Positions 8,610 through 45,600 of a DNA stretch of 64,000 nucleotides are shown here, one piece after another. The notes under the pieces were generated by a model. That model was not told where the DNA came from. It saw only the letters and a list, made by a program, of their open reading frames with translations, and did not search any database. Both the position numbers and the translations under genes were made by a program. Numbering within the stretch: position 1 is the first letter of the stretch; each line of letters starts with the position of its first letter. Origin of the DNA: Periplaneta americana (Eukaryota; Arthropoda; Insecta; Blattodea; Blattidae); assembly GCF_040183065.1 (NCBI RefSeq), contig NC_091119.1:205627798-205691797 (forward strand). Direction: 5' to 3'.

Positions 8610-9615
8610 TAGAGTCTGTAGACTTTTCTTCAAGTACAAAGAACTACAAACAGCTGTGACTGGTTCCCAGTCAATAAATTGGTATTAAATTGTAACAAAA
8701 CTAACATAATTCAATTTAAATCCTGTCCAAATTCAACCTCGCAAATTTCTAGAACAATAATGAACAATAGATTACTATTACAAACAACAACAACCAAATT
8801 TCTTGGCTTAAAAATCGATAATGTATTAAATTGGAAAAATCATATTAAAGAAATTAACCCCAAACTAAATTCAGCTTGTTTTGCTATTAGATCTCTGCAA
8901 AAGACAGTAAATATCAATACCTTAAAAACAATATACTTTGCATACTTCCAGTCGGTATTGAGTTTCGGAATAATATTCTGGGGAAATTCCACAGATAGTA
9001 ACAATATATTTCTATTACAAAAAAACCTTATTAGAATAATAGTAGGTGCCAAATCTAGGGAATCGTGTAGGACTATTTTCAAAAAACTACAAAAATGCCC
9101 ATGGCTTGTCAATATATATTTTCATTAATAATCTTCCTCGTATGTAATCGTGAAAACTTTGTAACTAATTCAACAGTTCATAGCATAAATACACGTCAAA
9201 AAATAACTTTCATACTCCATCGGCAAGTCTATCATGCTATCAAAAAGGAGTGCGTTATATGGCAGTAAAAATTTTTAATAGCCTCCCTATCGATATAAAA
9301 AATGAAAGTCAAAACTTAAGATTATTTAGGGCCAAATTAAAGTACATAATTTCTCACGCCTTCTATTCTGTAGGTGAATTCATGACATTCAATAACACTT
9401 CATGAAATTGATACTAAAACTTTATGTTGTACTAGTAAACTATATTGTAAACCTCTTCTGTATATATTTCATCTAAACTGTGACTATAAATTAAGACTTT
9501 ATAATACTATTAAGTTTTTTGACTTGTTCCATATTCTAGCTGTAAAGCAATGTATGAATACCATGGAATGTTAATAAATACAATACAATACAATACAATA
9601 CAATACAATACAATA
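8610..9615 (+). mobile_element. LINE-B copy, 5'-truncated, (CAATA)n tail
   Basis: Plus-strand 3' portion of a non-LTR retrotransposon related to the second copy at 42907-44320. It carries the C-terminal reverse transcriptase region, a 3' untranslated part with AATAAA near 9570, and a terminal run of about nine CAATA pentamers. Truncation at the 5' side is typical of incomplete target-primed reverse transcription; the exact left edge is unclear. Confidence 0.82.
8679..9128 (+). pseudogene. LINE-B reverse transcriptase C-terminal fragment
   Basis: About 149 residues. In frame upstream of the listed start, DWFPVNKLVLNCNKT can be read, the typical W..NKL.LN..KT segment downstream of the YADD box in jockey/CR1-like reverse transcriptases. 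It is followed by the FLGLKIDN.LNWKNHI motif and a thumb-like region (YFAYFQSVLSFGIIFWG). The frame is lost near 9128, but an amino-acid match to the rest (VRY-AVKIFNSLP-like) continues to about 9400 in another frame. There is no palm domain and no intact start. Confidence 0.8.
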
Positions 9616-10593: not shown

Positions 10594-13500
10594 AGATAGC
10601 CATGTGACAACGATTCTGTGATAGTCTGTCTTTCTCGTGTGGCGTAAGCATTCCGTTTCTAAGCAACTGTAATGCCTTCCCTGAGAGAAAAACACATTGG
10701 TAGTTGGGTCATTTGCAGAATTTGTATAACAAATGATGTCCATCAATTCTTACCCTTCCCATTATTGCATTTATAACGATAGAGTTATAAATTCCTAACA
10801 GTGAGTAGTTCCAATACTATTGTAGTAAACGTCACAAGAATTATTTCCTTCGTGTGAAATATTTCACGACAATAAAATAAAATTCTCATAGTAACAGCTA
10901 AAATGCCGTGTCCATACTAGTTAAGTTTTTAAAATGGAGCATGATTATGTCCAGATAAAGGTTTGTTTAATAATGTAATTGAGAAAAAAAAATTAATGAA
11001 ACATTTGATATTATCAAAACTTCTTCAATTATGTCTGAGTTTATATTTCCTTAAACATGATTACATAATTACTCTAGTCCAGTAAGTCAGTCAGGTCTGT
11101 TATACCATTCTGTTCCTATGGATACACAGTTGAAAAAGAAATCCCACAGATGTCAGCACAAGCCAAGATGATGCACAAAGACCCATTTTGATTGTACTGA
11201 TATGTTGACCCATTTTGATTTGGCGAGTTTGTGTGTCATACTCTTGCTTTATGTTTTAGTCTAAGCGTGCATTTTTACTCTGTCAGATCTGTTTGTGTTG
11301 TGTTTTCCACAAATAACAACATATAAAGTCAAGATCAAGAGGACATAGTAGTGCACGTGTCCAGTAGTTAAGTTGCTATTTTGCAGATTTTTAAGCAAAC
11401 AAATTTTACGTTAGCACATGCCTGTTTGCTTTGTCAAGTCTGTTACCTGTCAGATCTGTTACTCCGTCATGTCTGTTACATCATTCAAAACAGTGCTGTA
11501 AAGCAAGGTGAGTGTACAGTGGCTGATTACTATGGCAGAGACATTGCGCTACATTAATACATGCAGAATATGCACTAAATAGTACTTTAATTTTGACGTT
11601 CTCAATCTTCCATTTGTTATACAGGGACATCATTTTATTTTTACTTCAATTTTTATTGTACCTGACTTTTTGAACCTACTTCACTCCCACCCCTTCTACT
11701 AACGAAGTTCCAACTGTCCTCCACACAGAACCAAGCTGCATATACGAGTAAGCAGTACTGAGTTAGTGAGTATAGTACGTTTCAGAAATATGTTCGCGTT
11801 TTCCAGTGACGAAAGAGCTTTCAATATTGAATCATATTTTCGCACAGGTACTGTCGTCAGTTTGCCTATGTCGAATCCGATTTCCCCCACCTCCTTCTGC
11901 TCGCTCCACTGTAAAGACTAGTGACTGGGCTTTGTTAGCTCTTTTCTGAAAACATTAATTTCTGTTAGGAATTGGACGTCTACGTAATATTATGCAACTG
12001 TTTAAAATAACTTAAAAGGGCCTCGTTAAGTAATTAATTATCACGTGATTTCTCCCCTTTCTTCGATCCTACGACATAACCACTTGGACGGACAGTAGAT
12101 TGCATGTCTGAGTAATTTTATCTGTGCGGATCGGGCAGAAGTGAAGATTAAATTTACAGTACGTAAAGTACTCTTTTATAGAGTAGGTACAGAATTATTT
12201 CAACATGAGTTACTAAGTATGAAGGACGAAACTGGTAACTGGAATTAGATGCAATAGTCTATAGTGCGATAATATGCACATCAGAACTGAAGCCTGTATC
12301 GAAATGAACGGCCACCATTTTCAAAAATGTGTTTAAATATCCATATTATCATTATTTTTCAATTTAACTTCATTCTCTATATTGTACGCTAATGTGCTGT
12401 AGACAGTATAATATACACTGCATAATGAATACGTTCGCATGGATAACTCAGTTCTTGAGTAAAAACACTTATTCTTAATACAGTACTGTAGTTTGATTAA
12501 ACAAAAACCTAATGGAAATTATCAAACTCAAAATCGCGATATTTCCTAGTTTACGTAAATGGATGAACTACTTTTCTTCCCTCCTATACCTAGTAAAATG
12601 ATTTGTTTGTATATTACGCCAGTATCACCGAACTCCAGTCGTGGAAGGGGGTAGCAAACGGTGTTTCCGCGTCTCAACCATTAAACCAAAGGAATAGCCA
12701 GGTTAATATTAAAAATGTTAGTAAAAATAAAATGATGTCCCTGTACAAATTTTGCAAATGACCCAGTTACATCCCTTTCCATACATTGCCATGGCGTGCG
12801 TAGGTTTGCTGCACCCTGTCAAGTATCCCTTTTTTCCAATGGATTCGAACTCCTGTGCTGTTCGTAAAGACAGACGCTGCATTCCTACTGAGCACGAGGC
12901 CTGCGACACAAGATCGCTCGTCCCTGCCCACACGGGCATTAATCTTGTTACGCGGGCGTTTTTATTAGCTTTTTGAAGGCAGGTGATTATTTTTCTATTA
13001 ATAACACTGGAAGGATTATGAGCGAGTGCGGGCGAAATCTGATCGCTGTCGACAGAGGAGCAAGCTGTGTGGAGGGGTGGCTGGCAGGGGGTTAAAAATT
13101 GTCGAAGGGTGGAATATATTGCACGTATAGACGCTGCCTGTTACAGGGACGTCAAATTTCATACGTAACAGGGAGAGGGTGAAATACATTACACTGCTCA
13201 AACACTTTGATACTTTTACTTACTAATTCAGGAAGTAAAAATAGATTCGATGAATAGATTTTAAGATTATCATAAAATAGACATTTTCACATTCTCAGAA
13301 TACCGTCCCGTTGTCTATCTTTCCGTCCTTGCACAGCGATTTCTTCTTAATTATTAAACTATTTCTGTAAAGTACAAATTCAGAAACTAAGGGGCGATTT
13401 ATGCTAATATTTCGCTTATGTACCAATGTATCAATGGAGCTTAAGAATCGATCAAGTTTTAACCAATTAAAGCCAACTATCAACTGCAATCTTGTCGCAC

Positions 13501-16524: not shown

Positions 16525-17432
16525 CAGGGTGGCACACGAAATGTCATACCATTTAATTTTCACATAAAAATTGTAATATTGTTGCTTCGATGTTTCTAAC
16601 TGCGCTAGTGGATGCCAAAATTCATGGAAAATCCGATAAGTAGCATCACAGTTTGGATGTAACCATGGCTACGAGCACAAACATCAATTTGTGAAATGGA
16701 GGACAACGGGCGATTGACTGCTGGACACAAGGTGAAAGTTATTCTGTGTTGTGAGTAAACAAAACGTTCGATTATGGGCTAGGGAACCTCCTCGCATGCT
16801 GCATGAAAAAGAAATGTTTGGGGCAAAAGTTTCTGTATGGGTCGCAATTTCGAGCCACGGAATCATCGGTCCAATTTTCTTCGATGAAACTGTCAACCAA
16901 GTTCGATACAAAACCATGTTGGAAAGCAGTTTTATCCCCCGTCTCATGGCAAAAAGTCTCACTATGGAAACTCAGTGGTTCATGCAGGATGGAACCCGTC
17001 CACACACTGCAAACACCGTTCTGGATTACCTGCACGAGATGTTTGATCTTCGTGTGATGTCACGTCGACATGGGTGCCGCAAATTTTGGCCGCCTCGTAG
17101 CCCGGACATTAATCCATGCGATTTATTTTTGTGGGGATTCCTAAAAGAGAAAGTGTACCAAAGGAGGCCAGAAAATGTTGTGCAGCTCAGAGCCCTTCTA
17201 GTGGAGTTGTGCCGTGCGCTATCTGAAGACTTGTGTCGAAAAGTGGTGACGAAGTAAGGGTTCGTTTGCAAGAGGTTGTGAGGCAAAACGGCGGTCATAT
17301 GGAACATGTTCTGCATTAGAGACAAAATTCCAAATCCTAATTATTAATTCTGTATAATTTTGTAAAGCTTTAATACAAATCAATAGGTGTTACGTGTAAA
17401 ATAAATGGTATGACATTTCTTGTGCCACTCTG
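16525..17432 (+). mobile_element. Tc1/mariner-type element, internally deleted
   Basis: 31-bp terminal inverted repeats with two mismatches begin CAGGGTGGCACACG on the left (16525) and CAGAGTGGCACAAG on the right (read inward from 17432). TA lies on both outer sides (16523-16524 and 17433-17434), the target duplication of this superfamily. At 908 bp the element is shorter than an intact mariner, and only the C-terminal half of the transposase remains. Confidence 0.9.
16751..17257 (+). pseudogene. mariner-like transposase, C-terminal half
   Basis: About 168 residues of a DDE transposase, the enzyme that cuts and rejoins element ends. Visible motifs are VSVWVAISSHGIIGP and IFFDE before the second catalytic block, WFMQDGTRPH with the catalytic Asp, and WPPRSPDINPCDLFLWG with the third Asp. 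By codon count 43 residues separate these two Asp, more than the 34 of classical mariner. The N-terminal DNA-binding domain and first catalytic Asp are absent, since the left TIR lies only about 200 bp upstream. The region therefore cannot encode an active enzyme, though the remaining frame is unbroken. Confidence 0.88.
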
Positions 17433-21401: not shown

Positions 21402-22318
21402 AGGCTAGTGTAAAAAATTAAAATGTGAATGGAAATCAAACTGTAAATTTGATTTGAATAATTTTTCCCTCGAAATTATTTAAAATGTCAATGTTTTTTT
21501 TTTTTTTAATTTTGGGTCTTGATGACTTCCTTTAATTCGGTTTCAAGTGAATTTTATTTCCTCTATCTGGTTGATCGAAATTGGAACCAACTGACAGTCC
21601 ATATTGTTTGGATCTACTATTTTATACCTGAAAATTATCACTTCATTCTGTTGAATTGCACTTGTAAACAGCAAATTATCGTCAGTTATCATCATTCCAC
21701 TGAACGTATAATTTCTAATAATACTTACGTACACACAGTTAAGCTGTATTGTTGTATTTGCCCATTGACTGCTGTTTTGGGTGGCATTACGCTCGTTTCC
21801 TTATTCTACAAAATGAACATCTCTGCTTGCAACACCACTCGAGGTGTTAGGGGTGATATATTTGTCTTGTTGAGGGTGTGTTGTGCTTGAGATAACAGCC
21901 CGGCGTATCACGTCACCACAGCCACGCCCCGTGTACAGACTTCGCTACCTACAAGATTCGTCTTGTCTAACCAAAACATTGCTGTTATTAGATAAACAAG
22001 TTAAGTTCCGGGAATACGAACGTGTTGAGATGGCGTAACTACAAATTGTACAGCAGATCCTGATTGCCTGCCTCCACGCGATTAGCTGCGAACAGCGTTA
22101 CAAGTCCACACTGACGCCGCAGGATTACCAAGGATTCGTGTATCTCAAAGAAGCATCTAGCATTGTTTTTCAGTGGTGTGATTTATAGAGGGAAATTTAA
22201 TCCTCAATATATGGGCGTGAACAACGAACCTCGATATGGGTAACGGACGTTATGGATTCCCGTACTGTACAGCAATCTGCTACACTTGCAATCAAAACGC
22301 GTCACTAGCTGTTCAAAA
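21402..22318. other. No feature recognised
   Basis: An open frame of 123 codons at 21519-21890 (+) has no recognisable domain, signal peptide or splice context, and an antisense frame overlaps it. I do not call it a gene. Confidence 0.4.
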
Positions 22319-27903: not shown

Positions 27904-28098
27904 AAGGGTGCGGCAAAACATCCTCCCTAATTTAAAGCATAAATAAAAAACAGGTGGATCAAAATAAGGAAACTTTATTAATATGAATGGTATCTTAACA
28001 GTGGGAATTTTTAATTTTTTTTTAATAACGTGTGTCTCAAGTGGTGTCCTTCACTATCAAAGCATTGTTGAATGCGACTTCGGAAATTCTGCATCACT

Positions 28099-28281
28099 CT
28101 AAGTTAGCATTTCGTGAGGAATAAGACCAATTTCTTCCTGTATTGCATTTCTTAGGTCTGGCAAAGTCCTCGGCCGATATTTGAACACCTCAGCCTTAAG
28201 ATGCCCCCATTGAAAAAAATCGCAGGGTGCAAGGTCTGGTGATCGTGCTTCATCTTCAGTATCTGCATTACACATTTTCAC
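28099..28281 (-). pseudogene. inverted copy of mariner-like transposase C-terminus
   Basis: Sixty residues on the opposite strand: ARSPDLAPCDFFQWGHLKAE, VFKYRPRTLPDLRNAIQEE. It is the left-arm duplicate of the segment at 28639-28790 and keeps the third catalytic Asp (PCD) and an unbroken frame where the right arm has Asn and a stop. The two arms have therefore diverged since the inversion, or were copied from different elements. Confidence 0.85.
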
Positions 28282-28293
28282 TTATCGGGATGC

Positions 28294-28680
28294 GTGAATC
28301 ATCAAATTTTCCGATATTGGAGTGGACAGAACCCTCGTGAACGTCATGAAAAACCTCTACATAACGACCATGTTACTGTATGGTGCGCGGTTGCAAGAGT
28401 CGGGATACTTGGTCCTTACTTTTTTGAAGAGGATGGTGCTACTGTGACAGTGAACTCTCAGCGGTGCTCTTTTATGATCAACAATTTTTTGGCACCAAGA
28501 CTCAATGCGCTGCAGATTGACCAGGTATGGTTTCAGCAGGACGGAGCCACCTCTCACACAACTCAGATTTCTCTCCAAGTCCTGAGACAGATGTTTCCCG
28601 GACGCTTAATTTCTTCACGTGGCGACGTCCCCTGGCCAGCACGATCACCAGACCTTGCACCCTGCAATGTTTTTCTCTGA
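28294..28680 (+). pseudogene. mariner-like transposase, central part, broken
   Basis: About 128 residues with VTVWCAVARVGILGPYFFE, WFQQDGATSHTT (second catalytic Asp) and ARSPDLAPCNVFL. The third catalytic position, 42 residues after the second, is Asn instead of Asp, and a stop follows three codons later in place of the usual W-G. The frame beyond the stop continues as GHLKAEVF. The N-terminal region with the DNA-binding domain and first Asp is missing. Confidence 0.87.
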
Positions 28681-28984
28681 GGGCATCTTAAAGCTGAGGT
28701 GTTCAAACATCGGCCGAGGACTTTTCCAGACCTAAGAAATGCAATACAGGAAGAAATTGGTCTTATTCCTCAAGAAATGCTAGTTTGAGTGATGCAGAAT
28801 TTCCGAACTCACAGTCAACAAAGCATTGATAGTGAAGGACACCACTTGAGACACACGTTATTAAAAAAAAAATTAAAAATTCCCACTGTTAAGATACCAT
28901 TCATATTAATAAAGTTTCCTTATTTTGATCCACCTGGTTTTTTATTTAAACTTTAAATTAGGGAGGATGTTTTGCCGCACTCTT

Positions 28985-30224
28985 TACATGTAAACATGTA
29001 AATAATTTAATAAAATTTGTAACTAAGACTCATGGAATGTCAAATTCAATTACACAGACATTGTACGATTACATTAACGAACAGAACACGAGTTGAAATT
29101 AAAATTTTCGGCGCTCAAGTTGTATTTAAATTTTCCCCACAACTTTGGACATAAAAATGAACGATTCTAAACTTCTTTGCTATTCCCACAGTTGGGAGTA
29201 CAAAAGATTTTCATATCAGCGAAGTTAAGTGCAGTAGAAGTAGCTACAACTGGTTGTTCACTTGGTGTAAAAAAATTTATTTGGACTAAAACAAGTTAAG
29301 TTAATAACATTGCATTACATAAATAAAACATGATTTTATTATTTTAATAAATATTGGTGTAAGAATCATTAACTTTAATTAAGAGCAAATGTATATTATA
29401 TTTACTGTATATGTTTTTAATACTAAAAGTCAACTTGATAAGTCTTAGAAAACTATATTTTGATTTAAACTACTCTGTACTGTACAAACAACCACGTTTA
29501 TATTTCTTTATGTCTTGACTATACCTAAATGCAGAGTAAAATTAGCTTCAATTAGATGGCGTTCCTTGCTGTTACTATCCCAAATAACTCACGGAGTGCT
29601 GTCATACAGGATATCTTATACCGCAAGGTTTCCAGGAAGCGAGTTTGGTTTCTTGGTTCTTGGCAAGATTCCTTCGCTGAGAAACCAACCATTCTTGGAA
29701 ATTTTACAAAGGAAAGACGCTGGATTAGTTGCATACTCAAGATAATTCACAAGAAAGTGTCTCGTTTCCAGGTCTGTTTCAAATTTATTATTTGGCACAC
29801 TGCTACAAACTCTGTGAATTTACAGTATATTAGTTAAATAAACCATCTAATTCACAGGCTATCATCTTACCAGCCCAGCATCTACGTATATGACCCTGGA
29901 AATCGTTTGGCTAATAGCTAACAATAAGGTCAGGTGATTGAACACACTACTATACAGAAGTGCAGTCATTTTACAACTCAGACGGAATATTCTGATAAAT
30001 GTAATATCATTATTATTATTATTATTAACACTTTAATTGGGTTGAATTTGTGGCCGAGAATTCTAAATATATGCACTGGTGTCCCCCATAGAGAAGAGGT
30101 TCTCCTCGTTACCTTGTTTCGTATTCATCTATTTTTGTTACGAACTACTGTATTTAAGCAATTGTTTATCTTTAACATATCTAATTATCAATCTCTGTAC
30201 TAATTGATCTGTCCTGTGTCTTAA
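28985..30224. other. No feature recognised
   Basis: AT-rich; a short (ATT)n run near 30006-30027. Overlapping short frames at 29515-29837 on both strands have no motif. Confidence 0.45.
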
Positions 30225-31880
30225 TTCATTTGTCTTTGTGTGGTGTTGATCCATCAATCTTTGTGTGTGTTGATCCATTTCTCTTAAGTGTGCGTTGATC
30301 CATCAGCCTTTGTGTGTGTGTGTGTTGATCCATCAATCTTTGTGTGTGTTGATCCATTTCTCTTAAGTGTACGTTGATCCATTAGCCTTTGTGTGTGTGT
30401 GTGTTGATCCATCAATCTTTGTGTGTGTTGATCCATTTCTCTTAAGTGTGTGTTGATCCATCAGCCTTTGTGTGTGTGTGTGTTGATCCATCAATCTTTG
30501 TGTGTGTTGATCCATTTCTCTTAAGTGTGCGTTGATCCATCAGCCTTTGTGTGTGTGTGTGTTGATCCATTTCTCTTAAGTGTGCGTTGATCCATCAGCC
30601 TTTGTGTGTGTGTTGATCCATTTCTCTTAAGTGTGTGTTGATCCATTTCTCTTAAGTGTGCGTTGATCCATGAGCCTTTGTGTGTGTGTGTGTTGATCCA
30701 TCAATCTTTGTGTGTGTTGATCCATTTCTCTTAAGTGTACGTTGATCCATCAGCCTTTGTGTGTGTGTGTGTGTGTGTTGATCCATCAATCTTTGTGTGT
30801 GTTGATCCATTTATCTTAAGTGTGTGTTGATCCATCAGCCTTTGTGTGTGTGTGTTGATCCATCAATCTTTGTGTGTGTTGATCCATTTCTCTTAAGTGT
30901 GCGTTGATCCATCAGCCTTTGTGTGTGTGTGTGTGTGTTTATCCATCAATCTTTGTGTGTGTTGATCCATTTCTCTTAAGTGTGCGTTGATCCATCAGCC
31001 TTTGTGTGTGTGTGTTGATCCATCAATCTTTGTGTGTGTTGATCCATTTCTCTTAAGTGTGCGTTGATCCATCAGCCTTTGTGTGTGTGTGTGTGTTGAT
31101 CCATCAATCTTTGTGTGTGTTGATCCATCAGCCTTTGTGTGTGTGTTGATCCAGCAATCTTTGTGTGTGTTGATCCATTTCTCTTAAGTGTGCGTTGATC
31201 CATCTCTCATCCTATTTCTTGATCTTCCTCTCATTCTGTACGTTAGTTCATTTCCCATTTTATGTTTATCCTCAGTCTGTGTGTGATAATCCATTTGTTT
31301 CTGTTTGTTTATCAATCTGTATTTGTGTGTTAATTAATCTGCATTTTTCTATTTTCATTAATCTGTATTTCTGTATTTTTGTATCAGTCTTTGTATGTGT
31401 TGATCCGTCTTTCTTAAGTGTGTGTTGATCCATCGCTCTATTTGTGTATAGTGATCCATTTCTCTCACTTCGTATGTGCTGATCCATCTCTCGTGGCTTA
31501 TGTTGATCTTCCCCTTATTTTGTGCGTTAATCCATCTCTCATTTTCTGTTGCTCCACAGTCTTTGCGTCTGTTAACCATTTTCTCCTTGCGTGTTGATCC
31601 ACATGTCTTTATCAGCTTGTATCCGCGTGTTTTTTTATCAGTTTGTATTTGTGTTTTTTAATAATGTGTATTTTTGTGTGTTTTGACCCAGTTATACATA
31701 TTTGTGTGTGTCGACCTATCTGCATTCGTGATCCCTCTGTAAGTTATTTGTATGTATTGATCCATCTGTGATCGGGTGTGCTGATACATTTGTATTTACG
31801 TCTTGATCCATATATATTTGTGTGTTTACTGTACTTGTGTGTTTATCAATCTGTATTTGTGTATGTTGATCCATATTTCA
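30225..31880. repeat. TGATCCAT minisatellite with (TG)n inserts
   Basis: The phrase GTTGATCCAT recurs every 20-30 bp in three contexts: before CAATCTTTGTGTGTG, before TTCTCTTAAGTGTGCG, and before CAGCCTTTGTGTGTGTG. The three alternate to give a composite period of roughly 75-80 bp. The array is regular to about 31205, then degenerates to isolated TGATCCAT phrases as far as 31880. TG tracts differ in length from copy to copy. Frames across it are repeat-encoded. Confidence 0.92.
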
Positions 31881-33179
31881 TCGTGTGTATTCATCCATCT
31901 CCCTTTGCAATACATGGCAACAATCACTTTTAGAGTATTGATTTTTCTGATTAATAATTCGTTTATGCTACATATTTGTGTTAATTTATTTACACATGTA
32001 TTTATTTATTTATATATTTTATTTCTACACTAATCCAAATTCCTGATTAACATTTTGTATAGTATCTAGCTTCTGTGAGACGAAATTCTACGAATGTAAG
32101 AATGAATGAGGCCTAAATTGCTGCACATTTGGAAAATAAGCTTCGTTCGACTACCACTGACCAATTCTCGCATCTCTTTGGTTTGAAGTTTCACCAATCT
32201 GATATACTGCGATATCTCTCATTCGAAAGTGTAAGCATACACAGTTGCTTTAAAACAGCGCAATGTTCCGAAATTGTTACATTCACACACGCCACATCTT
32301 ATAACAGAGCCATTAAGAGTCCTTGCATTGAGTGTTTTGATGTTCATATTTCTACACAGCTGGTGACAAAGTAGTCTGATGCCAGGACAAAAAATCCCTT
32401 GTGAACCTTCGATGCATAGAATTTGTTGTGGGAATTAACATAGCTGTCCAGAGTGGAGTTACAGACAGGGCAGATATCCACACATTAGCACACCTACTAT
32501 TTCTAACATTACCATGTATGCACGTGAGCCATTGTAACCCATTACCTTGCTAATGGGGAGTGTCATGTGCTCATAAAATGTGCAGAATATAGTAGATCAC
32601 AACACAACGCGGCCTGTGTTGCCACAATAAAGGGGCCGTGTTCGTACCACCTCTCTGCACGGCTTTCATACTTTACTAACATTCATTTATAACTTTTCAT
32701 GTACGGAACAAGACAGCATTCCGAAAACAAGGCCTTTAAAATTCAGTTATACTTCAGCGGAACAAGGTACAGCTATTTAAACTGTCTAGAAAAACTAATT
32801 TTAACACTCACCTAATCCGAAAATTAACAGCATATAAATATTTTAAAATTAGTACCTACAGTACTGTACGAAAACTATAGCCTAACTAAGAAAACCAATG
32901 CAATTCAATCAAATATCGTTCTATGAAAAAATGGAGAAAATTAATAAATTACAAACTCACATAAGAAGTGAAATTTCATTTAATCCGTGAAATGTCATAT
33001 GAAACATTAGAAACGGCCGAATGTTATGGTGCTTACGGAATAGTAAATCAAAAGATGATAAACAAAAACGACAGAACAAATCAAATTAAAAGCTGTAAGA
33101 CATTTCTAGATCCATTATTACTTTGTAGTTTATGGTAATGGTACTGGATATTAAAGTGACAGGATATGGATCTAAGCAA
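31881..33179. other. No feature recognised
   Basis: No gene supported. The frame at 32129-32374 (+) has no known motif. Confidence 0.45.
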
Positions 33180-39633: not shown

Positions 39634-42600
39634 GTGAGTACCCGCCTTTAAAATACGAGAAGTTGTTTGTGTGTTGATCTTTTTCTGTGATAGATTTAAC
39701 AGCTCATTTCAGATGTAGCTTCAAGATTTGTGTTGCCCATATTTTGAGAGAGACTTCATAATTTCTGAATTAAATTAATGTACATCTATGTACTAATAAT
39801 TTGCATATTGTGTGATGTATTAAAGAAATGGAAATATAAAAATTGGAAACTTATCTTTTGAAGAGGTGGAGAAGTTCAAATATCTTGGAGCAACAGTAAC
39901 AAAATATAAATGATACTCGGGAGGAAATTAAACACAGAATAAATATGGGAAATGCCTGTTATTATTCGGTTGAGAAGCTTTTATCATCCAGTCTGCTGTC
40001 AAAAAATCTGAAAGTTAGAATTTATAAAACAGTTATATTACCGGTTGTTCTTTAGGGTTGTGAAACTTGGACTCTCACTTTGAGAGAGGAACATAGGTTA
40101 AGGGTATTTGAGAATAAGGTGCTTAGGAAAATATTTGGGGGTAAGAGGGATGAAGTTACAGGAGAATGGAGAAAGTTACACAACACAGAACTGCACGTAT
40201 TGTATTCTTCACCTGACATAATTAGGAACATTAAATCCAGGGCATGTAGCACGTATGAGCGAATCCAGAAATGCATATAGAGTGTTAGTTGGGAGGCCGG
40301 AGGGAAAAAATCTTTAGGGAGGCCGAGACGTAGATGGGAAGATAATATTAAAATAGATTTGAGGGAGGTGGGATATGATGATAGAGAATGGATTAATCTT
40401 GCTCAGCATAGGGACCAATGGGGGGCTTATGTGAGGGCGGCAATGAACCTCCGGGTTCCTTGAAAGCCAGTAAGTTAGTAAGTAAGTAAGTGATGTATTA
40501 AAACTTCAGGTATTAAGTAACACTTGTGATATCTCAGTAGGTAATTTGCTGGCATTTTGAAACTCAATTTTACCTGATCATACTTATCCAAGTTTACAAT
40601 AGGCTGGTGAAAAATGGTTCTCCTCTCCGTTACTGACGGCACTAATAGGCTATTTCCTAGAAATACAGGGTGATTCATAAAGAGTTACCACCACTTACGG
40701 AGCCCATTTCTGGAGACATTCTGAGCAAAATGTTTATATAAACAAGAGTCCTATTCTAAGTATTTTCAGAGTTACAGTAATTTGAAGTTGTTAAAAATGC
40801 CCTTTTTCTTTAGTTTTAAGGGTAAAAGGATGTTACAAATAGAGAATGAACCCGGTACATCTTCACTGTCCTGGCACTTCTGGGAGTAGCCATTTTGAAT
40901 GCACTGAGAGCAAACTTGTCAGTTTCTATAGTAACCATGGTGCTCTACCGTTTGCTGCCCGTTGTTTATACGTCCGCGCCCATTTTGAATTTTATTTCTT
41001 CAGTTAATTCCTTCACGAATTTTTTCAATTTAACTTCCCGACTGCTGATTATTGCTCAATTGAGATTATAGCCTAGTTAATTATGAATCGTTTGACACCA
41101 TTACGAACGTTCTATCGCTTCGAATTCTCGAGTTACACTGCCTTGGATGTCGCGCGACCCACTAATTCGTGCAACTTCACACTCGAATAATTTCGAAGGA
41201 AAAATTGCTCCGGGGCCGGGTATCGAACCCGGGACCTTTGGTTAAACGTACCAACGCTCCACCAACTGAGCTACCCGAGAACTCTACCAGATATCGATCC
41301 AATTTTTCCCTCTATATCCACAGACCTCAAAGTGGGCTGACGACCGTCAAGCAACCAACATTGAGTGCACACTAACTCTGTGTGAGAGAGGGATAAAATT
41401 GGATCGGTGTCTGGTAGAGTTCCCGGGTAGCTCAGTTGATGGAGCATTGGTACGTTTAACCAAAGGTCCCGGGTTCGATATCCGGCCCCGGAACAATTTT
41501 TTCTTCGAAATTATTCAAATCAACTTTACAGGAAGTTATACCTGAAAGCTTGATTTGCAACTTCACACTCCTTTGCTAGATGACGTCTCCCGCTCCAACT
41601 CAAGGTCGCGTTTGGTCCATTGATCCTCCGTCTGTCGGTCGTCGTTTACTTAATTGGAATATGTCTTGTAGTTTAGAAATTAGAGGCCCAAAAATCTCAT
41701 CTGAAAATGTGTCGTTCGACTTTCTGGGCTGGCACTCATTAATGTATGTGGTAGGGATATCATTGCTAACGTAGCATACAATTTGAATGTTCAGTAATTT
41801 GTAATAATAAAACATGTCGTCTTGAAGTCATCTGTTTCTGTTTGAACCTGGGTTCGACACAACTAAGGTCCCCTGCCAGGACATCGCACCGCACTGGCAT
41901 GTCACAGACATGCTGTTCGTACCCTGTCAGCTGGTGGAAGTCCAATGAAGTGAACCAACTGTAAAGCAGGGCTTCGTTCGTCCCAGTGCACAAATGCTTA
42001 TCGTTTGTGAAATGTGCATCATTTGTTATAGAAATTGGATCTGAAGGAGATTGATGGCAGCCTAATGTTGTAAGCAACTCTAACTCTCTGTTTTCAGACC
42101 ATTACATTGATTCCAACCTCGAGTACTTCCATTCGCGCCAGATCCGAAGTGCTGATAACAAGGAATACAACATGGACAACTGTCAACATCACCGTCGATT
42201 CAATCTGGTGAGTAATATTAAACATTAGCTTAGGTTCGATCCCCGGCGAACACCGATTTATAACTTGTGTTGGTCAAGCTTGTGGTTCAGGTAACACGGG
42301 AGTTTTCTCCCTCCGGGAACTCCGGTTCCATGCAGCATCCCAAGAAATCTCCACCAATCATCATCTGATGTCATCGCGGGTGTAACTTAGACCAGCCTCC
42401 TGTGACGAACCCTGGGCAAAGACTCTGTCTGTAAATTGGTCTACATAACTGGCTTCATATGGGTGAATGACTTAAGTGAATTACCCGACATTAGTACAGG
42501 AAACTCAGTTATCCCTCAAGACATGAAGTGTGTATTTTTAGATATCCGACATCATTATATCTAGTAACAAAGGAATCGTCCCGGATCGTGTAGCTTGAAT

Positions 42601-45600
42601 TTAATGAAAATGCATATTTAAACTAATTTTCGTTCTTTAATAAACGTGGTGATAGTCGTTTGTTTCGTTTTTTGTTCGTTTACGAAATATATTGACTTGA
42701 AAATCGATGTTACTTATACCGCTTCTTGCGCCACTGGAAACTTCATAGCTTCGCGACGCCGTATCGCAGCTCTCGCATTAATGCTCTAGTTAATTTGGTT
42801 CCCCTTAAGTCACATTAATACAGTAGCAGTGCAATCCATGGCATCTGTCACTCATTCGTACACCGTGTAAATCCATAGGTGTGCAGCTGAAAGTCTAGGA
42901 ACACGTTTGTATTGTATTGTATTTATTAACATTCCATGATATTCATACATTGCTTTAGAGCTAGAATATGGAACAAGTCAAAAAACTTAATACTATTACA
43001 AAGTCTTAATTTATAGTCACAGTCTAAATGAAATATATAATATACAGACAGCTTTACAATACAGTCTACTAATACAACACACAGTTTTAGTATCAATTTA
43101 ATGAAGTGTTATTGAATGTCATGAATTCATCTACAGAATAGAAGGCGTGAGAAATTAGGTACTTCTTTAATTTGGCCCTAAATAATTTTATGTTTTGAGT
43201 TTCATTTTTGTGTATCGAAAGGGAGGCTATTAAAATTTTTGCTGCCATATAACGCACTCCTTTTTGATAGCGCGATAGACTTGCCGATGGAGTATGAAAG
43301 TCATTTTTTTGACGTGTATTTATGCTATGAACTGTTGAATTAGTTACAAAGTTTTCACGATTACGTACGAGGAAGACTATTAATGAAAAGATATACTGAC
43401 AAGCCATGGGCATTATTAGTAGTTTTTTGAAAATAGTCCTACAAGATTCCCTAGATTTGGCACCTACTATTATACGATGAAAGAGTAATGGAATGGAGAA
43501 AAATTCTCTCCGGCGCCGGGATTTGAACCCGGGTTTTCAGCTCTACGTGCTCATGCTTTATCCACTAAGCCACACCCGGCGCCGGAGAGAATTTTTCTCC
43601 GTTCCATTACTCTTTCATCGTATGATGACGTAGAATATCTGCATGGAAATATCATATGTACTTCGGTACATTAATATAATATATATGATATGCGTAAATC
43701 ACTTTGTGATTTAAGACGGCGCTTATTCCGTCGGATCCCGGCCAACTAGTCACTCATATCGAGTGCACTTCAGCACATGTGTGGACTTCGGTCCTACGTT
43801 CATAGACATCTATGACGTAGTGCAGAGGGCGGCCACTAGAGGGAACCCAAGAGTTGGAGCTTAATCTGAGACGATTCTAACCGGCGTCGGGGTTGTATCC
43901 GGTGTGGCTTAGTGGATAAAGCATCAGCACGTAGAGCTGAAAACCCGGGTTCAAATCCCGGCGCCGGAGAGAATTTTTCTCCGTTCCATTACTCTTTCAT
44001 CGTATGATGACGCAGAATATCTGCATGGAAATATCATATGTACTTCGGTACATTAATATAATATATACCTACTATTATTCTAATTACTCTTTTTGTAATA
44101 GAAATATACTGTTACTACCTGTGGAATTTCCCCAGAATATTATTTCAAAATTCATTACCGAGTGGAAGTATGCAAAGTATATTGTTTTTAATTTATTGAT
44201 ATTTACTATATTTTGCATAGATCTAATAGCAAAACAAGCTGAATTTAGTTTGGGGGTAATTTATTTAATATGATTTTTCCAATTTAATACATTATCGATT
44301 TTTAAGCCAAGAAATTTGAACACATTATCCATCCTGAATCTTGTGAATACTACTTTTAACGCTTTATTACAAAATATTGATAAATTGGTACTTACTAGTG
44401 ATAATTATTAAAGCACGTCTGGCTTACAGCTGCTTCGGTATATACACCATCGTCAGAGCCTACTGGATTTTGATATCGCACCCTCACACCCTTACAACAG
44501 GCAGCGATATCAAGGTGATGCTATGATCCAGTAGGCTCTGACGATGGAGTATACACCGAAACAGCTGTGAGGCACACTTGGTTTAATAATTAACACTAGT
44601 AAGTGCCAATTCATCAATCTTTTCAACACATTATGTTTTCAAGAACCAAAAGGGAAATTTGGACCTTAAGTAAAACAACGTGTAGACAATAATAAGTCAT
44701 TTAATGCAAGTAGTTCAATAAACTGGCAAAAAAAAAACCACGTGAGAAGATGGTTGTTAGATGTATTTCTCCCGGAAGTTAAGAAAGATATACAGTACTA
44801 CTACTTCTGGATTCCTGGAGTGGTCAGATTGATGACACTATATTTACTTTTGAAGGAGTAAATAATACTTTAGATGGTAACACAATTTAAACACAAATTA
44901 TCCCTACAAAAACTACAAGATTCTTGCAACCGTTGAATGTATTTTTTAAGCAATATAAAATTGTAATTCGAAGGCTAGAAGAGTATTTCAGACATAAAAT
45001 TATCTGTAAAAACATTCCAGACATATTGCACGATAGAGGCTTCATAATGACATTGCATTCTGTTGTGTATCAACAATTTCATTCATCTGTCCTCAAAGAC
45101 GTGGTAATATACGCGTGGCAGATGTGTGGAGATGTGACGGAGAGACATGTGAGAAAGTTTCATAACGATCTTGCAACAAAGTTGCATGTTGAAAACAGTG
45201 TGTGTGTTACAGAAGAATTTCAAAAACCAGCTTGTAGCCTATAAAATATTTATACTGTTCATGGCTCTTTGCTCCGACCACTTCATTTGGAATCCACAAA
45301 GTTGGTATATATTTTAAATTCAAATTGAATTTTTATTTCAACACGAGTACTGTATTAATGTGAATTAACAGAGAGCTAGAGCATTAATGCGGGAGTTGTG
45401 ATATAGTGTATCGGAACTATGAAGATCAGAGTGCGTGCAAGAATTGGCATAAGTAGCATCGATTTTCAAGTTATTATATTTCGTAAACGAGGAAGAAGTG
45501 AAACGAAAGACTATCACCACGTTCCTTAACAAACCAAAATTTGCTTAAATATGCATTTTCAGTAAATTCAAACTACACAACCTGGGACGGTTTACTTGTT

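Follow-up and report, generated by a model that had tools for sequence, protein, structure and literature searches.

Penelope-like elements (PLEs) are described, in the accessible text of PMC3846280, as tandem or partially tandem copies that carry target-site duplications (TSDs) of 8–10 bp in Adineta vaga. One A. vaga insert consists of two direct pLTRs and an adjoining inverted pLTR, with a 31-bp tail at one inverted pLTR and a 9-bp TSD, and palindromes occur at the inverted junctions of PLEs in this species (PMC3846280). For the Anolis PLE, the available parts of PMC11167929 report that both target strands are cut and extended and that reverse transcription starts at two adjacent internal sites, the interval between which corresponds to the genomic tail. 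In that work the two strands did not differ in their choice of start site. Two repeat families of Periplaneta americana, here called A and B, resemble these elements (Penelope/Poseidon; PAc of Anolis and Pen2a_Av of A. vaga) as they appear in those texts: they have tandem units, a head-to-head copy, a tail at one end only, two internal starts of reverse transcription, and a short AT-rich TSD, which measures 12–15 bp in the PLEs of the cockroach itself. Unlike PLEs, both A and B are too short for a reverse transcriptase (RT) open reading frame and have no recognisable hammerhead, in place of which they carry a tRNA-like module.

Four further groups of elements invite comparison, each judged here from the accessible parts of one publication. 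Metazoan non-LTR retrozymes (Cervera and de la Pena 2020, PMC7229834) are, like A and B, non-coding and found as dimers to long multimers, with a unit of 150–450 bp; B differs from them in having a tRNA-like module instead of a type I hammerhead, and head-to-head ends of the two kinds defined below do not feature in the available retrozyme text. The tRNA-derived SINEs Sbg1-9 of Blattella germanica (PMC9191728) share the tRNA head, the A and B boxes and TSDs of 10–15 bp, but each of them begins with that head and finishes in poly(A) or a short tandem repeat; the tandem units of A and B are permuted and can end at either of two positions. TRIMp3 elements (Helenus, Ajax, Cassandra; PMC10886601) are likewise non-autonomous retroelements that have a tRNA or 5S promoter and depend for their mobility on a class other than LINEs. 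In the text available they serve LTR elements, with Penelope unmentioned, and Helenus and Ajax have LTRs, a PBS, a PPT and TSDs of 4–5 bp, in contrast to the Penelope-type ends and TSDs of about 12 bp in A and B. Finally, the short nonautonomous Penelope elements of Heliconius (PMC6685494) are short, non-autonomous and of Penelope class, as we propose for A and B, but the accessible text does not mention a tRNA. Within the open-licence literature, as far as its texts were accessible, we found no Penelope-class element with a tRNA promoter, and no earlier description of the pairing of tRNA-carrying repeats with Penelope-type insertion.

The window analysed is a stretch of 64,000 nucleotides of P. 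americana DNA, which lies in contig C3 of the genome searched (3,231,669,367 bases in 91 contigs). An earlier note on this DNA had described a 593-bp insertion with 12-bp duplications splitting a LINE-B copy, and its coordinates proved exact: element B measures exactly 593 bp (43474–44066), interrupts a LINE copy and is bounded by the 12-bp TSD ACCTACTATTAT at 43462–43473 and 44067–44078. Its flanks align over 810 columns at 92% with an intact LINE copy on the opposite strand (window 9593–8795), and the empty site, which the note had placed at about 9030–9060, was located in that uninterrupted copy as a single copy of the TSD 12-mer (9036–9047, minus strand). ARAGORN and Rfam both called the two opposed tRNA-like modules, in which the anticodon position reads GTA, the left at 43508–43579 on the minus strand (42.7 bits) and the right at 43898–43969 on the plus strand (61.5 bits). 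The left acceptor stem contains two non-pairs, C-A and G-G. The right stem, described as perfect, does have 7 pairs, but one is T-G (G.U), so that it is not fully Watson-Crick. Similarly, the direct repeat of about 100 bp is real and spans 111 bp (43575–43685 and 43957–44067, spacing 382), but it is the edge of a 382-bp tandem unit rather than an extra segment beside the modules.

We number this unit U1–382. It consists of the tRNA-like module (U1-72), a trailer with a T5 run, an end position called alpha at about U106, a tail that reaches a second end position, beta, near U170, and a middle rich in hairpins (U171-382). The window copy of B is made up of an inverted run of 0.28 unit with an alpha end and a run of 1.29 units, in the other orientation, with a beta end. 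The features of this element and of related sequences in the window are as follows:

43462–43473, no strand: left TSD ACCTACTATTAT, present as a single copy in the empty site at 9036–9047.
43474–44066, plus: whole element B, 593 bp, read as an inverted alpha-cDNA head-to-head with a 1.29-unit beta-cDNA.
43474–43576, minus: inverted cap, read as the cDNA from the alpha site (outer end 43474) to the 5' part of the tRNA (U4); the window copy is locus L001.
43508–43579, minus: left tRNA-like module, GTA; the join cuts its 5' acceptor strand.
43575–43685, plus: first copy of the 111-bp direct repeat, the start of the partial unit.
43686–43897, plus: middle of the unit, U171-382, hairpin-rich and in B more variable than the tRNA part.
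43894–43895, plus: U379-380, where a Pol III start is predicted (11 nt ahead of the A box) and where a 5' stop of cDNAs recurs.
43898–43969, plus: right tRNA-like module, U1-72, with the A box at 43905–43915 and the B box at 43948–43958 (boxes assigned by eye).
43974–43978, plus: T5 run just 3' of the tRNA, within a small hairpin, a possible Pol III terminator; a similar run occurs in family A.
44003–44004, plus: alpha site (about U106/107), at which the shorter of the two outer ends stops.
44004–44066, plus: alpha-to-beta tail, at one outer end only.
44067–44078, no strand: right TSD.
9036–9047, minus: empty site, the target 12-mer in single copy in an uninterrupted LINE copy.
41185–41555, plus: element A, of the sister family, GTT, with its TSD at 41170–41184 and 41556–41570.
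21432–21479, no strand: minimal insertion of 48 bp with a 14-bp TSD (21418–21431 and 21480–21493, one mismatch); termini assigned by eye.

Element B has the putative Pol III boxes of a tRNA-derived SINE, an A box of the form TRGYNNARNNG at U8-18 (by eye) and a B box.

A search of the genome with the insert, in which the best 40 of 2039 first-look candidates were scored, recovered full-length copies at 90–96% identity on many contigs, with different flanks and different TSDs, which excludes chance as the origin of the arrangement. The note had proposed to look for further copies with shared ends, and such shared ends are present; because the same two-module configuration recurs at many loci, the two modules do not appear to have been inserted at different times. 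A 33-nt motif from the tRNA 3' part and trailer of B, allowing up to 2 mismatches, occurs at 12,551 + 12,438 = 24,989 places in the genome, counted as sites and not as insertions, with 0 for a reversed-pattern control. Among the first 100 listed motif sites, all of them exact matches on contig C1, neighbours less than 1.5 kb apart included 22 head-to-head and 0 tail-to-tail pairs, and 7 same-strand pairs were spaced at 370–385 bp. This abundance, together with the same arrangement elsewhere, makes it extremely improbable that a true tRNA-Tyr gene pair was caught here by chance. The score of 61.5 bits would suit such a pair, but the left acceptor stem is broken and, as read from the sequences, position 33 of the anticodon loop is C in both family consensuses. 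This position is almost always U in tRNAs. Because C33 stands in both consensuses, the anticodons of the A and B modules are probably meaningless for translation.

The 38 B loci that were mapped contain arrays of up to 10.1 units (L031) with a 382-bp period, and 30 of them include head-to-head runs. The length of the inverted part ranges among copies from about 0.1 to more than 2 units. These observations bear on the classification as a fold-back element, of which the insertion, borders, empty site and tRNA likeness all stand. The inverted repeats at the ends of element B are long (108 nt, 97%) and accompanied by a target duplication, as would be expected of a DNA transposon of fold-back or MITE-like type whose terminal inverted repeats are tRNA-like. 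Such an element is nevertheless hard to reconcile with outer ends that are unequal (alpha vs. beta), an inverted part of such variable length, TSDs of 9–15 bp and frequent tandem arrays, and we give it very little credence. Since the inverted length differs among copies and the two outer ends are unlike, one being alpha and the other beta, the label fold-back is not the best description, and the inverted part of element B is better understood as a second cDNA, made when the tandem 382-bp unit was inserted by priming at two sites. We consider it likely that element B as a whole represents one insertion of a non-autonomous retroelement, with a 382-bp tandem unit and a tRNA-derived module, by PLE machinery.

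The strongest regularity concerns the outer ends. Each of the 28 distinct B insertions that were scored at both ends has an alpha end and a beta end. In this count, L022 was replaced by a C7 array, both ends of which are visible in L012, as L021 and L022 (C1:48.86 Mb and C1:43.19 Mb) contain the same B insertion and flanks at 99.9% over 3492 bases in inverted orientation, either a segmental duplication or an assembly duplicate. L031 was kept outside the count with a long end at U187; a 13-bp TSD at this locus would place that end at about U165, i.e., at beta. Eight B loci run in one orientation only, with alpha ends in L033, L036, L048 and L050 and beta ends in L023, L044 and L047, while L037 runs off its locus boundary and its end was not counted. 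Family A, with a 285-bp unit and a tRNA with a GTT anticodon position, has the same alpha/beta head-to-head architecture, and the single clear match between the two families is a 36-nt stretch covering T arm, acceptor and T run (83%). Here the best 40 of 5418 first-look candidates were scored and 30 loci taken, of which L077 and L078 repeat others and L055 (off the locus) and L060 (unclear end) were unscored; 25 of the 26 scored insertions have one alpha and one beta end. The queries used for scoring both families had one end of each kind, so that copies with two beta ends would score equally and copies with two alpha ends slightly lower. The exception, L070, ends in alpha on both sides, lacks a TSD and is flanked by inverted copies of one sequence, and the beta end beside it belongs to a separate single-ended neighbouring piece (L070:1470-2050). 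Given the missing TSD and inverted flanks it is no ordinary insertion, and may be either an inverted target duplication or an aberrant insertion, but it still breaks the rule. The 48-bp insertion at 21432–21479 with its 14-bp TSD seems to consist of just two family-A termini, one beta and one alpha, assigned by eye and placed head-to-head, and looks like a minimal two-primed insertion that exposes both start sites.

Autonomous PLEs of the same genome, which have GIY-YIG and hammerhead, served as a control. A GIY-YIG search in which the best 150 of 7667 candidates were scored gave 108 matches, several of which, among the 108 listed, sit in head-to-head pairs. Both ends were read in the 6 of 9 pairs with predictable outer ends, and the hammerhead motif was found at 12/12 of these ends. 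In all six pairs one end stops at a common point, 122–131 nt past the start of the motif, and the second end is 37–46 nt longer, with a TSD of 12–15 bp beside each end. The TSDs of the three groups are alike, with medians of 12 bp in B, 12 bp in A and 12.5 bp in the PLEs and AT contents of 77.5, 75.1 and 76.6% (n = 26, 24, and 6, respectively); in A and B their length varies from 9 to 15 bp. These values leave aside L007 (only 7 bp) and L038 (none) of B, L070 (none) and L079 (only 8 bp) of A, and the unscored A loci. Overall, ends of one of each kind occur in 59 of 60 scored insertions (B 28/28, A 25/26, PLE 6/6), a rule sharper than the "optional tail" of the literature; compared with the available texts on the A. 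vaga and Anolis PLEs, the use of one of each is stricter here and the anatomy is of the same kind.

This agreement with the PLE control also weighs on the possibility that A and B are tRNA-headed SINEs mobilised by a LINE, their inversions arising from L1-style twin priming. The A and B boxes and the TSDs of 9–15 bp are as such elements would have them, and the SINEs of the German cockroach are, in the accessible text, tRNA-headed with TSDs of 10–15 bp (PMC9191728). A and B, however, neither start at the tRNA nor end in poly(A) or a fixed microsatellite, their unit (382 or 285 bp) is tandem, and their two alternative ends, one of each in 59/60, match those of the PLEs. To our knowledge, twin priming has no fixed internal start. 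We therefore regard LINE mobilisation as very unlikely and insertion by PLE machinery as the better account.

By its anatomy, element B is PLE-like in its behaviour, although the A and B units gave no blastn match at E up to 1 to 20 PLE 3' ends taken from the 108 GIY-YIG matches. Because no partner was found among these 20 ends, we make no assignment to a particular PLE family, and because a 382-bp unit is too short for an open reading frame with RT and GIY-YIG domains, we file the element as a user of the Penelope pathway and not as an autonomous PLE. Single-sequence RNA folds around alpha were unlike in A, B and PLEs, with no common fold among them. A hammerhead motif, CTGA[A/T]GATG..GAAA, is present in 13 of the 20 PLE 3' ends. 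An Rfam scan for hammerheads at E up to 1 reached only one (L090, E 0.14) of seven PLE ends with the plain motif, missing L083, L085, L091, L096, L098 and L100 despite their clear minimal motif, and found none in B at E up to 5. As Rfam is insensitive to these hammerheads, the point is carried by a motif scan, in which the CTGANGA core was absent from both strands of the A and B consensus sequences. A and B thus have no hammerhead core, although PLEs of the same genome carry one. One candidate in the tail of B, TGATGA-stem-GAAA, was rejected; it has no C before TGATGA and sits after alpha.

Among the 56 cDNA stops of 28 B insertions, analysed without L022 and L031, 22 lie in U355-U9 and 18 in U46-84, i.e., at the 5' edge and in the 3' half of the tRNA, where CCGG-type palindromes occur, and 17 of the 28 joins pair one stop from each stretch. 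The p-values for these clusters (4e-9 and 7e-6) are descriptive only, because both stretches were chosen after inspection of the data. Eleven of the 56 stops fall within the 9-nt stretch U378-U4, and a stop at U380 recurs in runs of 0.29, 0.29, 1.29 and 2.29 units (L006, L007, L028 and L017, respectively). SINEs of the German cockroach start 11 nt before the A box, according to the available text (PMC9191728), and this rule predicts a Pol III start at about U379 in B. The clustering of cDNA stops at the predicted start suggests that Pol III transcripts were the cDNA templates in B. Family A shows no clustering of cDNA stops at its predicted start, so that the Pol III start as the cause of the joins is suggestive in B and unsupported in A. 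A T run follows the tRNA in both families, and the T5 run just past the tRNA should halt much Pol III transcription before alpha and beta. As family A has no such stop and the T run favours frequent termination, we put the Pol III step conditionally; A and B probably use Pol III, through a tRNA-derived promoter that takes the place of the hammerhead.

The modules and arrays can also be viewed as traces of a retrozyme-like circular RNA replicon, in which the tRNA would stand in for the hammerhead, processing would be by RNase P/RNase Z or otherwise, and rolling copying would produce the arrays. In its favour, the unit size and tandem form are like those of metazoan retrozymes, the tRNA has the same place upstream of alpha that the hammerhead has in PLEs, and several arrays consist of near-identical units, with 0–1 differences among five units of L055 and 0–3 mismatches among units 2–10 of L031. 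Within the roughly ten units of L031:1046-4954 a three-unit pattern occurs thrice (units 2=5 and 3=6=9), with an 11-bp deletion shared by units 2 and 5 and absent from unit 8, which hints that a trimer was copied repeatedly. Uniformity is lower in other arrays (5–9 differences in L035 and 10 in L036), and near-identity of units fits either expansion at the DNA level or the copying of a template that was multimeric or circular, so that unit likeness alone may not speak for a replicon. The cDNAs traverse whole tRNA modules, which implies that many templates were unprocessed, and the ends left by RNase P/Z are unsuited to RtcB ligation. We find a retrozyme-like replicon improbable on balance, and do not count B among the retrozymes sensu stricto. 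Conservation differs between the families: in B the trailer and tRNA are the least variable parts of the unit, with 0/72 tRNA positions showing a minority above 10% vs. 16/212 in the middle (37 loci), and in A the tRNA is not less variable than the middle (8/73 vs. 13/123 positions, 28 loci). The low variation of the tRNA in B favours the promoter reading, to which A lends no support in this respect either.

Under our preferred reading, insertion by PLE machinery, a multi-unit copy would be transcribed, probably from the internal promoter in the tRNA-like module, by Pol III reading through the T5 run. A PLE RT-endonuclease would bind this RNA and make two cuts in an AT-rich target, one per strand and offset by about 12 bp, as the TSDs and the in vitro work of PMC11167929 suggest. 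The target 3' ends would then prime inside the RNA, one at alpha and the other at beta, which is what the anatomy of 59/60 scored insertions points to. Both cDNAs would extend toward the RNA 5' end and their 3' ends would presumably be joined, often at the CCGG-type palindromes of the tRNA, giving the head-to-head arrangement. Longer arrays may owe their length to later expansion of the DNA or to a multimeric or circular template. A bolder version, which we hold to be doubtful, is that the tRNA replaces the Penelope hammerhead altogether, in a Pol III-made, tRNA-processed and perhaps circular RNA with two mutually exclusive RT starts, one per target strand, and a self-complementary acceptor stem that clamps the two cDNAs together. 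If true, this hammerhead-replacing tRNA RNA would constitute a Pol III branch of the third class of retroelements.

Short tRNA-carrying repeats seem to have reached thousands of sites via the two-ended insertion machinery of Penelope, and we read A and B as the PLE-class counterpart of SINEs and TRIMp3. LINEs and LTR elements each have known parasites with Pol III promoters, SINEs and TRIMp3, respectively, and a Penelope-class counterpart would complete the set. Because they are tiny and numerous (24,989 B motif sites), the A and B insertions give a clean record of Penelope-type RT starts. They also have a practical consequence: all four tRNA calls in the window fall within A- or B-type elements, and programs that search for tRNAs will report many spurious genes in the P. 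americana genome. Elsewhere in the window, an open reading frame at 16736–17257 contains a DDE_3 transposase domain (PF13358, E 6.6e-08) and is probably a remnant of Tc1/mariner type, and the 4 kb at 28001–32000 show an AT skew of −0.233.
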